Assembly (NCBI RefSeq): GCF_024972735.1
Contig: NZ_CP087723.1
Coordinates: 1,116,001 to 1,180,000, forward strand
Direction: 5' to 3'
Source: Halalkaliarchaeum sp. AArc-CO
Lineage (GTDB): Archaea; Halobacteriota; Halobacteria; Halobacteriales; Haloferacaceae
DNA: 64,000 nucleotides
Numbering within the stretch: the stretch's first letter is position 1; every line of letters starts with the position of its first letter. The notes beneath the pieces are model-generated. The model saw only the letters and a program-made list of their open reading frames with translations. It was not told where the DNA came from and ran no database searches. The translations under genes and the position numbers were made by a program. Shown here piece by piece: positions 17,843 through 24,521 of the stretch.

Positions 17843-18814
17843 TCAAATCGACTGCTCCTCGCTGTAGTAGTCCATGACGCCAGCGTAGTGATCGAGCACG
17901 AGGACGATCGCCGCCCCGACGGCTGCAGCAGCGAGAAACGTCGCCAGCACCGACGGCGTCCAGGATCGTCCGGCTTCCGAAAGCGCCAGATCGGCCTGGA
18001 CGACCGGCGCCCGGAGCGCTCCTGCCACCAGTGCGACCAGGAACGCGAACGTGGCGTTCCGGTAGCGTGCCAGCGCGTATCGCACCCCGTGAGCGACCGT
18101 AAAGAGACCGACGACGGCCCCCGAAAGGAAGATGATCACCGGCGGTGCCGTCTCCAGGACTGCTGCGGTTGATCCGCCCATACCCAGTCCGAACAGCGCG
18201 TCGACGAACCCTTCCAGCGCCCGCGACATGTACTCGTACTGTCCCAGCAGGATCAACAGTAGCGATCCCGACACCCCTGGAAGGACCATTGCGCTCACGG
18301 CGATCGCACCGGCGACGAAGACGAGCAGTCCCCCGGAGTCGGCTCCGGCAGCCGTCTCACCCGAGAGGAGAAATGCAACGAGGAATCCGGTGACGGCGGC
18401 GGCTTTTTGCCCTCGGGTTACCAGTGACAGGTCCGCAAAGAGGACGATCGCCGAGGCGCCGATCAGCCCGAAGAAGAACGCGAACGTGGCGACCGGGACG
18501 GTGTCGAGTAGAAACACGACCGTCCGGAGTACGGTGATGACCGCGGTCATGATCCCGACCCCGAGCACGAGCAGGAACGGGCCGTCCATCTCGAGGAACG
18601 CCGCCCGTGCGTCCGGCAGGTTCCGCGGGTTGAGTCCCGAGAGGAGTCGCCTGATCCGGTCGGCGTCGATCGCCGTGATCGCGGCGACGAGTCGTTCGTA
18701 GATCCCTGTGATCAGGGCGATCGTTCCCCCCGAAACCCCCGGGACAGCGTCGGCTGCACCCATGCACGCGCCTTTCAGGAACACCGATACCAGATCACGG
18801 AGCGGTGAGGTCAC
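17843..18814 (-). CDS. DUF368 family membrane protein, candidate polyprenyl-phosphate transporter (PopT type)
   Basis: 323 aa, about eight to ten membrane spans. Two internal repeats carry the family signature: ADAVPGVSGGTIALITGIYERL (residues ~21-42) and MVLPGVSGSLLLILLGQYEYM (~176-196). DUF368 proteins have been reported as bacterial undecaprenyl-phosphate translocases that return the lipid carrier to the cytoplasmic side. Here the gene starts (GTG 18814) 9 bp after the aglB stop on the same strand, so recycling of dolichyl phosphate released by AglB is the natural inference. No experimental support for archaeal members is claimed. Confidence 0.85.
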   Translation of the reverse strand: MTSPLRDLVSVFLKGACMGAADAVPGVSGGTIALITGIYERLVAAITAIDADRIRRLLSGLNPRNLPDARAAFLEMDGPFLLVLGVGIMTAVITVLRTVVFLLDTVPVATFAFFFGLIGASAIVLFADLSLVTRGQKAAAVTGFLVAFLLSGETAAGADSGGLLVFVAGAIAVSAMVLPGVSGSLLLILLGQYEYMSRALEGFVDALFGLGMGGSTAAVLETAPPVIIFLSGAVVGLFTVAHGVRYALARYRNATFAFLVALVAGALRAPVVQADLALSEAGRSWTPSVLATFLAAAAVGAAIVLVLDHYAGVMDYYSEEQSI

Positions 18815-18823
18815 GATCGGGAG

Positions 18824-21800
18824 TCACCCGACGAGTGTCGGCGCCACAAGCGATTCGTCAGTGTCGCCGTTCCCCTCGGTCTCCTCCTCGTCACCGTTGG
18901 GTTCCTCGTCGCCGTCGGATTCTTCATCGGCGCCGTTTTCTTCGTCCTCTCCAGTGGGTGCTTGACCGAGGTCGAGCGCCTCGGGTTCCAGCGTTACGCT
19001 GACCGGGTCGGGATCGTCACCGACGACCTGTCCTTCGTGAACGTCGGTCGTGTCGAGGTACTGGACGAGCTCTCCGTCCTGCTCTTCGATCCCCTCTTCC
19101 ATGATCGTGTACTCGCCGGTCGCCCGGACGCTCACGTTGGTGTAGCCGTTGTCGGGGCCGTACTCGTCGTAGCCGATCGTCGAGTACGGGACGGTAAACT
19201 CGAACTCGCCGTCCTCGTCGGCGGTGGCGTACTGAGTGTAGGTGAACGTCTCGCCGGTCGCGGGCACCTCCATCGGTACCTGCGCGACGACGTCTTCCCC
19301 GGGCGTGGCGTTCTCGCCTTCGATCGTCGCACCCGGCACCCGTTCGAACGTCTTCACCCACTGTGGCTGGGTTTCGATCAGGGCATCGGGGGAGAGTCCG
19401 GTCATCTGTGCAGTCCGCTGGAGATGATTCACGTACTCAGTGCCGGGGATCATCGCCGACGAGTCGCTCGCCTTCACCAGGCGGTAGTGTTCGAGTGCGG
19501 GCACTCTCTCGGAGGGATACGGTCCGACACCACCGATCTGGGCGTTGTCGTTCTCCTCGATGTACTCCTCGGCCTCCTCCATCGTGTCGAACTCGAGGAC
19601 GAACTCCTCGTCGCCGGTGGGCATCTGTTTGACGTCGATCTCTTCACCGGTTTCGACGTTGGTGTACGTTTGCTCCTCCCACTGGATCACGATCGGGCGC
19701 GGATCCTGTGCGCTGCCGTGGTATTCGTAGAGCCGGACCATCAGGCTCTCGTAGTAGCGCTGTTCCTGGACGAACCCGACCGGCTGTGCACCACCTTCCT
19801 GTTCACCCTCCTGAATCTGCTGCCACATGGTCGTGTAGAAGTCCTCTCTCTCCAGGTCGGGGTTCTCGTCGTACCAGACGATCGGCGCGCCGAACTTCGA
19901 GCCGGGCGTGGTCATCTGGTAGTCGACCATCACGTACCGGGTGTTCTCGCCTTCGTCACTTTGGCGTGCGAGCACGTCACGAGCGTCGTCCTCGCTGGGT
20001 GCAAGCAGGAAGTTCGCGGCCTCGGTAGCGTGCTGCTGGAACGGGTTGGCGTTCGATATCCGTTCTCCCCTCGTGGTTATCCAGTGGCCGTAGTCCCACC
20101 AGGATTGCACGCCGTAGGCGCCGTCGGGATAGTCGAAGTCGCCGTCTGCCGGGCGTTCGTACGTGCCGTAGTACTCCATCGGGTTGTCGTGTCCTTCGAG
20201 TTCGCCCGGATGGGGCGTCTCCTCGCTCATCCAGTCGAGGCTGTCGTCCCACTGGGTGACTGCACCTGGGCCGGTACCGGCACCGGCTGTCCATGCCGGA
20301 GTGGCAACCGCCACGAGCGGGACCAGAAGCAGAACGACGACGGTTCCCACGACCATCACCTGCCAGCCCTTGACGTTCTTGAGGTCGGCAAGCGACGGCT
20401 CTGCGAGGTCGATCCGGACGAGAAGTTCCTGCAGGAAGTAGGCGGTCAGGACCACGACCACGATTGCGAGATAGTAGTTGAACCGGGTCTGGGTGAACGC
20501 CGCACTCGCGATGAACGCCGCCCAGACGACGAGGAACGTCTCCTCGACGTCGTACTCGACCCGATAAAACGCACCGGCGATGATCCCTGCAGCGATCAGA
20601 AGGCCGACCAGCTGCCAGGCCATCCCGAGGACTCCGCCGATCGCCCCTGGGATCGCGGGAAGAAGCAGGACCGTCCCGATGACCGCGATGCCGGCGACGG
20701 CGTAACCGGTGTCGTTGGTGTCGTCGCTTCCGATCAGTGGCTTCGCGAGCAGCGTGACCGCACCCAGCGCGGCGATGAAGAACGCGAGGCCGTACTCCTC
20801 GATAATCCGCTCGACGGGCGTCATTCCCTGCTGCTGGAGGACGCTTTCCGCGAGGAACGGTTGCGCTTCGCCGATCGTCCGCGTCTCGGCCCCGGCACTG
20901 AAGCCGACTGTCCGAAGGAGGTTCGTCTCGATCGTGCTCCAGGCGTCCGGGAGGACAACGGCGAAGATCCCGACCGAAATCCCGATGAGACCGAGCGTGG
21001 CCACCGGATACGCCATCGGCTGGATCTCCCGCTGTTCCCACTGCCGGGCCAGGAACGCGAGGAACACTGCACCGCCGGCGACCGCAAGCGGGAGGAACAC
21101 CTGGGTGAGCGAATAGTCGGTGACGCCGAACGTGAACCGATCGAGCGGGATCACCATCAACACTCCCGTAACCCCCATCGAAACGGCCGCCGCGAAGGCG
21201 GCCGGTTCGGGGCTGTCACCGTGTGCGACGTCGCTGGTCATCTTCAGGACGACGAACAGTCCGACGATACCGACCAGGAGGACGCCGGGTTGCCAGGTGT
21301 ACATGTACAGCGCGACCAGTACACCGGCGCCGGTCGCCCACTTCGCGGGCCGTTTCAGCGCCTCGGTGTCACGGTCGACGACGAGCTCCCAGACGGGTTT
21401 TTCCCGTTCCGCGACGGCGAAGGCGATCAGTAGGCCGATCACCGCAGCGGCCTGGAAGAAGACTTCTGCCGCGTGGTGATCGTAGAACCCGACGAGCGTG
21501 TAGCTGAGGAACGTTCCCGGAAGGAGAGCCAACACCAGGATCCCGACGAGGCTCGCGAGCCGGCCGGCGAAACGCCGACAGATGAAATACGTCGGAATCG
21601 CTGCTGCCGCGCCGAAGAGGGGTGCCATCACGAGCATCACGCTCATCGCCTGCGCCTCGGTGGGACTCCCGAGCCCGACGAGCAGGATGATCGTCGCGGT
21701 GATCTGATCGTACAGCGTCCCGAACTGGCCGACCAGGCGGCCGTACGGGAACCCGGTCCAGACCTCATAGGGCATCGTATTCGGGTAGTTCTCCACGGCG

Positions 21801-22003
21801 TACATCGTCTCCCGGTAGTGGTACCACGGATCGTTCCCGCGGAAGTACACCTCGCCACCGACGACGAAGTTGTCGTACGCCTGAAGGCGGAACCACAGTA
21901 TCACGCCGACGAGGAATCCGAGAACCGGAACGTGATAGTACTCCTGGAGGGTTTCGAGGACCGACGTCCCGGCGTCGTCGGTCTCCTCATTCGATTCACT
22001 CAT
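18824..22003 (-). CDS. aglB: Dolichyl-phosphooligosaccharide--protein glycotransferase
   Basis: 1059 aa archaeal oligosaccharyltransferase that moves the glycan from a dolichol (pyro)phosphate carrier to Asn in N-x-S/T sequons outside the membrane. The N-terminal part is a ~13-span membrane domain with the first metal motif GNDPWYHYR (residues ~56-64), a second acidic motif FYDHHAAEVF (~173-182), and TIGE at ~376-379 on external loop 5. The soluble C-terminal domain opens with the sequon-binding WWDYG motif (635-639). The last ~40 residues are very acidic (Asp/Glu/Gly-rich). Start ATG 22003, diverging from a GT2 glycosyltransferase; DUF368 lies just downstream. Confidence 0.97.
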   Translation of the reverse strand: MSESNEETDDAGTSVLETLQEYYHVPVLGFLVGVILWFRLQAYDNFVVGGEVYFRGNDPWYHYRETMYAVENYPNTMPYEVWTGFPYGRLVGQFGTLYDQITATIILLVGLGSPTEAQAMSVMLVMAPLFGAAAAIPTYFICRRFAGRLASLVGILVLALLPGTFLSYTLVGFYDHHAAEVFFQAAAVIGLLIAFAVAEREKPVWELVVDRDTEALKRPAKWATGAGVLVALYMYTWQPGVLLVGIVGLFVVLKMTSDVAHGDSPEPAAFAAAVSMGVTGVLMVIPLDRFTFGVTDYSLTQVFLPLAVAGGAVFLAFLARQWEQREIQPMAYPVATLGLIGISVGIFAVVLPDAWSTIETNLLRTVGFSAGAETRTIGEAQPFLAESVLQQQGMTPVERIIEEYGLAFFIAALGAVTLLAKPLIGSDDTNDTGYAVAGIAVIGTVLLLPAIPGAIGGVLGMAWQLVGLLIAAGIIAGAFYRVEYDVEETFLVVWAAFIASAAFTQTRFNYYLAIVVVVLTAYFLQELLVRIDLAEPSLADLKNVKGWQVMVVGTVVVLLLVPLVAVATPAWTAGAGTGPGAVTQWDDSLDWMSEETPHPGELEGHDNPMEYYGTYERPADGDFDYPDGAYGVQSWWDYGHWITTRGERISNANPFQQHATEAANFLLAPSEDDARDVLARQSDEGENTRYVMVDYQMTTPGSKFGAPIVWYDENPDLEREDFYTTMWQQIQEGEQEGGAQPVGFVQEQRYYESLMVRLYEYHGSAQDPRPIVIQWEEQTYTNVETGEEIDVKQMPTGDEEFVLEFDTMEEAEEYIEENDNAQIGGVGPYPSERVPALEHYRLVKASDSSAMIPGTEYVNHLQRTAQMTGLSPDALIETQPQWVKTFERVPGATIEGENATPGEDVVAQVPMEVPATGETFTYTQYATADEDGEFEFTVPYSTIGYDEYGPDNGYTNVSVRATGEYTIMEEGIEEQDGELVQYLDTTDVHEGQVVGDDPDPVSVTLEPEALDLGQAPTGEDEENGADEESDGDEEPNGDEEETEGNGDTDESLVAPTLVG

Positions 22004-22127
22004 TGTTCCCTACGACTGGCAAAAGTCGCATAAGCCTTGTCATCTCTCGTCTTCTGTGGCTGTGCTGTCGTCCACGATCAGCTATCGGCCGGGGGGATAT
22101 TCCGTTCGACTGCCGGCCGGAAGGAAA

Positions 22128-22160: not shown

Positions 22161-23141
22161 ATGAAGGTCTCGGTCGTCGTCTGTACGTATTCGATGGATC
22201 GGCTGGATCCCTTCTTCGAAGCAGTCGATAGCGTGCTCGCACAGACGTACGACCCGCTCGAGGTCGTTTTGGTCGTCGACGGGAACGAGGAGGTGTTCGA
22301 ACACGTCGCGGAACGATATGAGGACGAACGCGAAGTGGCGACCGAGTTCACGGGCGATGTCGTGCTCCACTGCAACGAGGAGAATCGCGGGATCTCTTAC
22401 AGCAGGACGAAGGGTGCAGAACTCGCGTCTGGTGACGTCGTCGCCTTCATCGACGACGACGGCGTCGCCGAACCCGAGTGGATCGAGACGCTGGTGGACA
22501 CCTACGAGCGCACGGACGCGATCGCGGTCGGCGGCTACGTCGCACCCGACTGGGTGACTGAAAAGCCCGACTTCTTCCCCGAAGAGTTCTACTGGCTCGT
22601 CGGCTGTACGGAGCGGGGATTCGCCGACCACATGGAAGAGGTTCGGAACACCTACGGTTCGAATATCTCCTACAAACGGGAGGTGTTCCGTTCTGTCGGC
22701 GGGTACGATCCGAACACGGGACGGAAAGGCGACCGACACATCCAGGCCCACGAGGCCCCGGTGGGAATCCGCTTGCGGGAGCGGTACGGGAAAGGCGTCG
22801 TGTACAACAGGAACGCGGTGGTACGTCACAAACTGTTCGACTACCGTGGCGAGTTTCGGTGGCTGGTGTTCCGGTCGTTTTGGCAGGGCTACTCGAAACG
22901 GATCATGAGCGTCCTCTATCCCGATTCGCAGGGCGACGAGTCGGCATTCCTCGGCAAGCTGCTGTTTTCGTTTCTGCCGGGTCGGCTGTGGTCGCTCGCA
23001 AAAGCGCCGGCGGCGGCGAAAGCAAAACAGATCGTCGCGATCGTCGTCTTCACCGCCGCCGTCGGCTTCGGATACCTGTACGGGCTGACGAAAACCGAAC
23101 GGGAGGTCCTCCGCGAGGAGTCCGGCGACGACGCAGCCTGA
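22161..23141 (+). CDS. GT2 glycosyltransferase, AglG-like
   Basis: 326 aa GT-A fold enzyme. MKVSVVVCTYSMDRLDPFFEAVDSVL begins the fold, FIDDDGVAEPEW (residues ~96-107) carries the DxD-type metal motif, and a C-terminal hydrophobic segment near residues 285-307 (KAKQIVAIVVFTAAVGFGYLYG region) suggests membrane attachment. It resembles AglG of Haloferax, which adds a hexuronic acid to dolichyl phosphate-bound sugar. The neighbouring UDP-glucose dehydrogenase, which makes UDP-glucuronate, supports a uronic-acid donor; this assignment is inferred. ATG 22161 follows a TATA-like element; the frame open from 22056 is not conserved-looking. Confidence 0.82.
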   Translation: MKVSVVVCTYSMDRLDPFFEAVDSVLAQTYDPLEVVLVVDGNEEVFEHVAERYEDEREVATEFTGDVVLHCNEENRGISYSRTKGAELASGDVVAFIDDDGVAEPEWIETLVDTYERTDAIAVGGYVAPDWVTEKPDFFPEEFYWLVGCTERGFADHMEEVRNTYGSNISYKREVFRSVGGYDPNTGRKGDRHIQAHEAPVGIRLRERYGKGVVYNRNAVVRHKLFDYRGEFRWLVFRSFWQGYSKRIMSVLYPDSQGDESAFLGKLLFSFLPGRLWSLAKAPAAAKAKQIVAIVVFTAAVGFGYLYGLTKTEREVLREESGDDAA

Positions 23142-23156
23142 CAGCGACCCGTTCGA

Positions 23157-24521
23157 TCACCAGGTCAACCCTTCATACGTGATCCCGTCGCGCCGCTCGA
23201 TGATCCGCCGGCCGTCGATCACCACTGGTTCGGCCATCGCGTCGAATTCTGTATCCAGCGTCGCGAACTCGTCCCAGTCGGTCACGACGACGGTGGCATG
23301 GGCGCCCGACAGCGCCGTCTCGGCGGAGCCGGCGGCCTCGAACTCCAGGTGGGGATACCGCTCCCGGATGTCCTCGACGGCGACAGGATCGTACGCGACG
23401 ACCTCGCCACCCCGTTCGGTCAGCCCCTCGATGACCGGCACCGCTCGGGAGTTGCGGGTGTCGTCGGTGCCCGGCTTGAACGCCAGCCCGAGCACAGCCA
23501 CCCGCTTGCCGTCGACGTCGACGTGTCTATCCAGCAACTCCAGCAGTCGTTCGGGCTGGTAGTCATTCACCGCGACGGCGGCATCGAGGAGTTCGGGCTG
23601 GTAGCCCCGACCGCGGGCGGCCGCCCGGAGCGCGTCCACGTCCTTCGGAAAGCAACTCCCGCCCCACCCCACCCCCGACCGCAGGAACTGCTCGCCGATC
23701 CGATCGTCGAGCCCGAGGGCGTCGGCAACCTCGTAGGCGTCGATGCCGTACTCCTTGCAGACGTTGCCGAGTTCGTTTATCAGACTGATCTTGGACGCGA
23801 GGAACGCGTTGTTGGCGTACTTGATCATCATCGCGGTCGCCGGATCGGTTCGCACGACGGGGACCGCGTCGGAAAGTAGGGGTTCGAAGACGGCCTCGAG
23901 GCGCTCGCCCGCCCACTCGGCGTCGTAGCCGAACACCATTTTGTCAGGGTTCTGGAGGTCCGAAACGGCGGAGCCCTCCCGCAGGAACTCGGGGTTGGTC
24001 GCGACCTCGACTTCGAACTGCCCCGGCGCGTCGGCGTCGTCGCTCGAATCCCGAGAGGCGAGTTCCCGGCCGAGCCCGCGTTCGATCGCGGGGGCGACGA
24101 CCTCCGCGGGGACCGCCGGCGTGACTGTGCTCTTTACCACGACCAGGTGACGGATGGTTTCGCCGTCGGGGACGGCACCCGCCTGTTCGGCTCTGTTGAG
24201 CGCCTCGCCGACCGATTCGGCGCCGCTCTCGATCGCGGAGACGTCGACGCTGCCGTCGTCTCTGGAGGGGGTCGGCAAGGCGAGGAACGTGACATCTGCA
24301 TCGGCGACGGCTGCGTATTCGGTCGTCGCCGTGAGGCTACCGCCGGCGTGTTCGGCGACGAGTTCGTCCAGCCCGGGTTCGTGGATCGGCGATTGGCCGG
24401 CGTTGATCGCCGCCACGGGTTCTTCGTCGATGTCGATCGCGACGACCTCGTGGCCGATCTCAGCGAGACAGGCCGCAAGCGTCGTGCCGACGTAGCCGCT
24501 TCCGACGATGGTGACCTTCAT
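23157..24521 (-). CDS. aglM: UDP-glucose 6-dehydrogenase
   Basis: 454 aa. NAD-binding [17 protein letters not shown] at residues 7-23, the E-x-G-L-DEL motif, the central [25 protein letters not shown], the catalytic Cys in [10 protein letters not shown], and the C-terminal [17 protein letters not shown] are all present. It oxidises UDP-glucose to UDP-glucuronate for N-glycan assembly. An acidic insertion ([13 protein letters not shown], ~178-190) is haloarchaeal. The ATG at 24521 is chosen because it puts the first strand at residue 2. It is convergent with the GT2 gene (16 bp between stops). The symbol follows the Haloferax volcanii name. Confidence 0.92.

Follow-up and report, generated by a model that had tools for sequence, protein, structure and literature searches.

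The aglB-DUF368 locus

The window analysed here, a stretch of 64,000 nucleotides (nt) from the 3.18-Mb genome of Halalkaliarchaeum sp. AArc-CO to which all positions refer, carries on its minus strand aglB, encoding an archaeal STT3-type oligosaccharyltransferase, followed by the gene for a DUF368 membrane protein (Table 1). In an NCBIfam profile search, AglB scored 906.5 bits against TIGR04154 (cut-off 450); the protein also matched the Pfam models STT3, AglB_core and AglB_L1 (PF02516, PF22627 and PF18079), and its translation contains the WWDYG motif, as SWWDYGHW. The downstream product scored 208.9 bits against PF04018 (DUF368, undecaprenyl phosphate translocase-like; curated cut-off 26), and the genome has no other PF04018 gene. 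A preliminary description of this DNA had placed the DUF368 start 9 bp past the aglB stop, which is borne out by the coordinates of the open reading frames (ORFs), with a spacer at 18815-18823. So short a junction suggests that aglB and the DUF368 gene may form one transcription unit.

Conservation of the pair in Halobacteria

We searched 116 Halobacteria genomes, drawn evenly from 46 genera and 9 families, with the profiles PF04018 and TIGR04154, and counted the two genes as directly adjacent when the profile matches lay less than 1 kb apart on the same strand with DUF368 downstream of aglB. All 116 genomes contained aglB and 115 contained DUF368. In 76 genomes, spread over 8 of the 9 families and 31 of the 46 genera, DUF368 directly follows aglB in the same orientation; four more have it up to 3 kb away with the gene order unchanged, which brings the linked genomes to 80. 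The sole genome without DUF368 (G021; loci L039 and L150) retains aglB.

The surroundings of aglB served as a local control. Taking one aglB locus per genus (aglB was called in 45 of the 46 genera) and clustering the neighbouring proteins at nine positions, we found DUF368 as the +1 gene in 31 of the 45 loci. The next-best positional neighbour was a divergent AglG-type gene at -1 (22/45); every other named gene cluster reached at most 9/45 at any of the nine positions, and the commonest cluster at two of the downstream positions was common to four loci only. The flanks are thus scrambled while aglB and DUF368 stay together, indicating that the pair outlives its surroundings.

Junctions, promoter elements and flanking genes

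Junctions were compared at 31 adjacent loci, namely 30 fetched ones and the window, with DUF368 starts chosen by alignment to the window's start. The aglB stop and the DUF368 start overlapped at eight loci and lay 0-9 bp apart at nine (17/31 together), with wider gaps of 27-63 bp at seven loci and 84-168 bp at another seven. A strict TATA-like pattern at the usual place preceded DUF368 in 0/32 and aglB in 13/32 loci, against a base rate of 48/4475 in coding DNA, this set of 32 including one locus with a 1.8-kb gap. By eye, a weaker GAACGCTTTTGG-like element stands ahead of DUF368 in seven long-gap loci. The coupling of expression proposed in the preliminary description fits the overlapping and 0-9-bp junctions; at several long-gap loci DUF368 may be driven by a promoter of its own.

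Ahead of aglB, comparison of the window with the aglB upstream regions of L002-L049 revealed a promoter-like decamer, CAAGGCTTAT (window 22030-22039, minus strand). Of the 49 loci, 20 have it exactly and 42 when one mismatch is allowed; its distance to the aglB start is 31 nt in 37 of the 49. The same decamer occurs three times in the window's genome, once before a tubulin-like ORF (CetZ-type by eye).

On the other side of aglB lie genes of the AglG and AglM families, so that the locus borders an agl cluster resembling the one in Haloferax volcanii (aglJ to aglM); AglB, AglG and AglM of the same families stand side by side in the window. As listed, the aglG ORF begins at 22056, with its family match starting at residue 36, and the aglM ORF extends to 24644, with its match starting at residue 42. 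In H. volcanii, the available parts of two papers (PMC5131992, PMC7749143) give aglB as HVO_RS12050 and, in one of the two, aglG as HVO_RS12045. Since HVO_RS tags rise in fives, the DUF368 gene of that species, HVO_RS12060, lies two tags beyond aglB, and the gene between them is probably aglM. A related arrangement was seen in Haloferax marinum (L095), where the two genes share a strand and about 1.8 kb separates aglB from the DUF368 gene downstream. According to the accessible portion of PMC5867893, aglM is the last gene of the H. volcanii cluster as published, which is perhaps why DUF368 is not counted in it. We found no publication containing both DUF368 and AglB, and none joining COG2035 with glycosylation.

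Table 1. Positions of the features discussed (window coordinates unless a genome label is given).
Feature	Position	Strand	Basis or remark
aglB, oligosaccharyltransferase (archaeal STT3, archaeosortase-associated subfamily)	18824..22003	-	1059-aa ORF; family profiles; WWDYG
DUF368 / PopT-type polyprenyl-phosphate transporter gene	17843..18814	-	GTG start; 323 aa; PF04018
9-bp spacer, aglB stop to DUF368 GTG	18815..18823		a promoter would not fit
aglG, divergent glycosyltransferase	22161..23141	+	NF041394, 509.5 bits (cut-off 440)
aglM, UDP-glucose 6-dehydrogenase	23157..24521	-	NF041297, 703.7 bits (cut-off 670)
Promoter-like element of aglB, ACAAGGCTTATgcgacTTTT	22021..22040	-	conserved; sole match in the genome at ≤2 mismatches
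Second STT3/AglB-like protein, example	G000:C2:409279-411783 (L154); loci L150-L162		without WWDYG

The DUF368 protein and its history

The window's DUF368 protein consists of two homologous halves (residues 1-157 against 158-323; hhalign probability 98, E 2.3e-13), each carrying the motif PG[VI]SG once, with P, G, S and G of both copies invariant in 36 sequences; that these two features mark the family was drawn from the alignment made in this analysis. A twofold repeat with such motifs is as expected of a transporter with two re-entrant loops, which would be the predicted topology. An AlphaFold2 model built from the 36 sequences reached a mean predicted local distance difference test (pLDDT) score of 91.3. 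Sequence searches found no relative of solved structure, and Foldseek searches with the model returned no match at E ≤ 0.001. The best VIA-align hit, a ZIP transporter aligned along 167 residues with a Z of 9.1, falls in the range that the tool calls common and gives no clear fold match. A BacA structure, 6fmt, was listed by Foldseek at E 0.75 and was treated as noise. Relatives from Salinivibrio, Vibrio and Photobacterium are 31-37% identical to the protein along roughly three quarters of its length.

A tree of 91 DUF368 proteins, made with a quick method and with an outgroup that did not form one side of a branch (two rows fell on the wrong side), placed the linked form in all early-branching haloarchaeal lineages. 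Most unlinked proteins formed one inner clade of nine proteins from three families, with a support of 97 in the Shimodaira-Hasegawa-like approximate likelihood ratio test (SH-aLRT). Linkage therefore looks old and kept, under a labelling in which L095 and L100 were taken as linked though aglB ends about 1.8-1.9 kb upstream, and L094 as unlinked on the basis of 3.4 kb of upstream sequence only. Five linked genomes (G005, G025, G091, G107 and G044) carry a second, unlinked DUF368 copy. We read this pattern as an old pair in which, in certain lineages, an unlinked copy may later have taken the place of the linked one, a direction that goes beyond what the tree can prove. As a distinct clade, unlinked DUF368 (L050, L053 and related loci) occurs in families f3, f4 and f8, in five genomes beside the linked copy. 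Among the glycan-related families near unlinked DUF368 (ten ORFs at three loci) we found only non-specific domains and no alternative partner.

DUF368 and STT3 outside Halobacteria

Across the phylum we sampled 196 genomes (33 Halobacteria and 163 others) and found DUF368 in 60, namely in 32 Halobacteria and in 28 of the remaining genomes. Each of these 28 also encodes an STT3 protein, and in none of them did DUF368 lie beside its gene. In three of these non-Halobacteria genomes, all from one family, DUF368 and STT3 are 12-14 kb apart, and the genes between them, judged from the starts of their ORFs, look unlike a glycosylation cluster. Of 60 genomes of the phylum sampled for STT3, 55 carried it, and most non-haloarchaeal members with STT3 are without DUF368; DUF368 is therefore not required for N-glycosylation as such. 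Similarly, 40 further loci, mostly from Methanobacteriaceae (DUF368 was re-found in 39), contained no AglB match within the flanks covered, and the recurring DUF368 neighbours there were unrelated (UvrA/DNA repair, helicases and metabolic genes). The preliminary description had asked how often the two genes adjoin in archaeal genomes: they do so in most Halobacteria, and the count outside that class (0/28) rules out adjacency as a general archaeal rule. The aglB-DUF368 pair is a haloarchaeal unit rather than an archaeal rule.

Proposed return of dolichyl phosphate and its alternatives

Experimental work on bacteria gives the family a role in carrier recycling. In the accessible text of PMC9876793, DUF368 proteins of Vibrio cholerae and Staphylococcus aureus act in the recycling of undecaprenyl phosphate (C55-P), bare C55-P builds up on the surface of bacterial DUF368 mutants, and a V. 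cholerae vca0040 mutant is at least partly complemented by the H. volcanii protein HVO_RS12060. The same text notes the enrichment of DUF368 in Halobacteria, proposes a fitness role at high salt and mentions dolichol phosphate in general terms. As to the carrier of the AglB pathway, PMC3871713, in the part available, names dolichol monophosphate (DolP) as the donor in H. volcanii, so that AglB should leave DolP outside and transport alone would be needed. The preliminary description had let AglB release dolichyl (pyro)phosphate; with this donor the released lipid would be the monophosphate and not the pyrophosphate.

Taken with the conserved gene pair, these findings lead us to propose, at a probability of roughly 60%, that aglB and DUF368 act in haloarchaea as a unit serving a single carrier cycle, with DUF368 returning the DolP that AglB releases on the outer face. 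In such a cycle, AglB would shift the glycan from DolP to asparagine on the outer face, where the lipid would be left; DUF368, as a twofold-repeat membrane transporter of the PopT family, would bring it to the cytoplasmic leaflet, and the next glycan would be built on it there. With a monophosphate as donor, the AglB and DUF368 steps would need no phosphatase between them. The pyrophosphate phosphatase BacA is lacking in 56 of the 116 Halobacteria and in the window's genome, in keeping with this view. By analogy with H. volcanii and in view of the missing BacA, the AglB donor in the window's organism would be DolP rather than dolichol pyrophosphate (DolPP). The transport of DolP by DUF368 in haloarchaea, its direction, and service to AglB as its main role are predictions.

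Several observations weigh against carrier return by the pair. The window's protein scored 174.3 and 87.4 bits against the NCBIfam PopT equivalogs NF052564 and NF052563, where 400 is required, and is therefore not filed as either. Linkage is dispensable, as DUF368 lies far from aglB or on another contig in 35 of the 116 genomes and is missing from one; the unlinked genomes are concentrated in families f4 (16/27) and f3 (15/23). Gene order is inherited within one class, so the 76 adjacent genomes are not 76 independent events. DUF368 of the long-gap loci may have its own promoter. Finally, DedA-domain proteins occur in 116/116 Halobacteria genomes, and carrier return may thus not fall to DUF368 alone; DedA could compensate, and a single DUF368 deletion might show little. 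We also considered DedA as the partner of aglB and rejected it, since among the matches listed none adjoins aglB, with at least five within 20 kb by eye. Carrier return, as first put forward in the preliminary description, is in keeping with the partial complementation by the H. volcanii protein (available text of PMC9876793) and finds no adjacency to lean on outside Halobacteria.

Three other explanations share part of this evidence. DUF368 might be a general envelope-lipid transporter, or one for fitness under salt or alkali, that sits behind aglB since both genes are steadily expressed and has no specific part in N-glycosylation. Its retention in 115 of 116 Halobacteria, linked or unlinked, is what such a role would predict, as are the many genomes with an unlinked DUF368 alone, the five with an unlinked copy beside the linked one, and the high-salt role and Halobacteria enrichment put forward by the authors of PMC9876793 in the text available. 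We nevertheless consider it unlikely, given that nothing else around aglB is as well conserved as this pairing (31/45), which outlasts all other flanks, and that overlapping aglB-DUF368 junctions recur. A transporter working outward, flipping glycan-charged DolP and thereby feeding AglB its substrate, would draw on the same linkage data, charged DolP having the same phosphate head group; moreover, the charged-lipid translocator of the pathway is not identified (PMC4335974), making the gene adjoining the transferase a natural candidate. However, the bare C55-P on the surface of bacterial DUF368 mutants fits the return of uncharged carrier, and the H. volcanii protein partly works in V. cholerae, where the carrier is C55-P and not a DolP-linked glycan (both from accessible parts of PMC9876793). 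With AglR and Agl15 as proposed outward flippases, we regard the outward direction as distinctly improbable. A functionless adjacency, handed down as ancestral gene order and preserved by chance and because breaking an operon is costly, would explain why all linked cases fall within one class; since the flanks on both sides are scrambled across the same range and DUF368 moved away several times, leaving time enough to break the pair, we give this account hardly any credence.

A second STT3-like protein and BacA

Weak second matches to STT3 sit near BacA, as a comparison of the TIGR04154 and BacA search results revealed. We aligned twelve such proteins and searched the resulting profile in the 116 Halobacteria. 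Two of the twelve were scanned against family models and matched STT3 or AglB_L1 models, with TIGR04154 far under its cut-off. All twelve keep NDPY and mostly DHH, and carry SxWGxNRMYN in place of the AglB WWDYG; the roles of the NDPY, DHH and WWDYG-position motifs in this alignment are presumed. Full or near-full copies were found in 66 of the 116 genomes, after three of 69 genomes at threshold (G023, G065 and G069) were dropped as AglB itself or a fragment. Some plasmid copies bear the annotation 'STT3 domain-containing protein', others a different one.

The second STT3 and BacA occurred together in 54 genomes; 12 had the second STT3 only (the window's genome included), 6 had BacA only and 44 had neither (Fisher p 1.7e-14, uncorrected for kinship). 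Among 10 genera in which the second STT3 is variable, BacA tracks it fully in six and, apart from a single genome, in a seventh, and is absent throughout the remaining three. The two genes lie at most 1.3 kb apart in 10 genomes of 6 genera; in G021, the genome without DUF368, 119 bp separate them. A polyprenyl-phosphate sugar-phosphate transferase cluster was present in 4 of 13 fetched second-STT3 stretches. At some of these loci (L150:1503-2945, L157, L159 and L162), a transferase of this kind (PF02397) occurs along with a recurrent DUF4330 protein and an unnamed ORF that partners the latter.

This distribution suggests that each transferase is paired with an enzyme that recovers its own leaving group. 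Tentatively, and with rather more doubt than belief, we propose two parallel haloarchaeal systems: AglB with DUF368 for DolP, which would be carried back, and the second STT3 without WWDYG with BacA for DolPP, which would be dephosphorylated first. Halobacterium salinarum delivers two glycans, the first from DolP and the other from DolPP, according to PMC3871713, which allows for a further, missing transferase. If the proposal is true, the pair of second STT3 and BacA would become a candidate for the enzyme that transfers the DolPP-linked glycan of that species, and the leaving-group logic would thereby supply a candidate for the one called missing there.

Relation to known systems and implications

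The window's DUF368 belongs to the same Pfam family as the PopT/DUF368 translocases VCA0040 of V. cholerae and SAOUHSC_00846 of S. aureus (PF04018, COG2035), but differs from bacterial PopT in being tied to an oligosaccharyltransferase gene and in its expected carrier, dolichyl rather than undecaprenyl phosphate. The V. cholerae and S. aureus proteins were studied by Sit et al. (PMC9876793), and PopT reportedly by Roney and Rudner. The undecaprenyl-phosphate flippases of the DedA/COG0586 family have the same proposed job of carrier return (PMC10127716) and belong to a different family. BacA/UppP, the undecaprenyl-pyrophosphate phosphatase, also serves carrier recycling and goes with the second STT3-like protein instead of AglB; DUF368-BacA and DUF368-PAP2 fusions have been described in other microbes (available text of PMC9876793).

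We found no publication that assigns the return of DolP after archaeal N-glycosylation to a protein. The conserved pair, together with the published activity of the H. volcanii homologue, opens this question to a one-gene deletion test, and the place of DUF368 beside aglB puts a known family of transporters in a new context.

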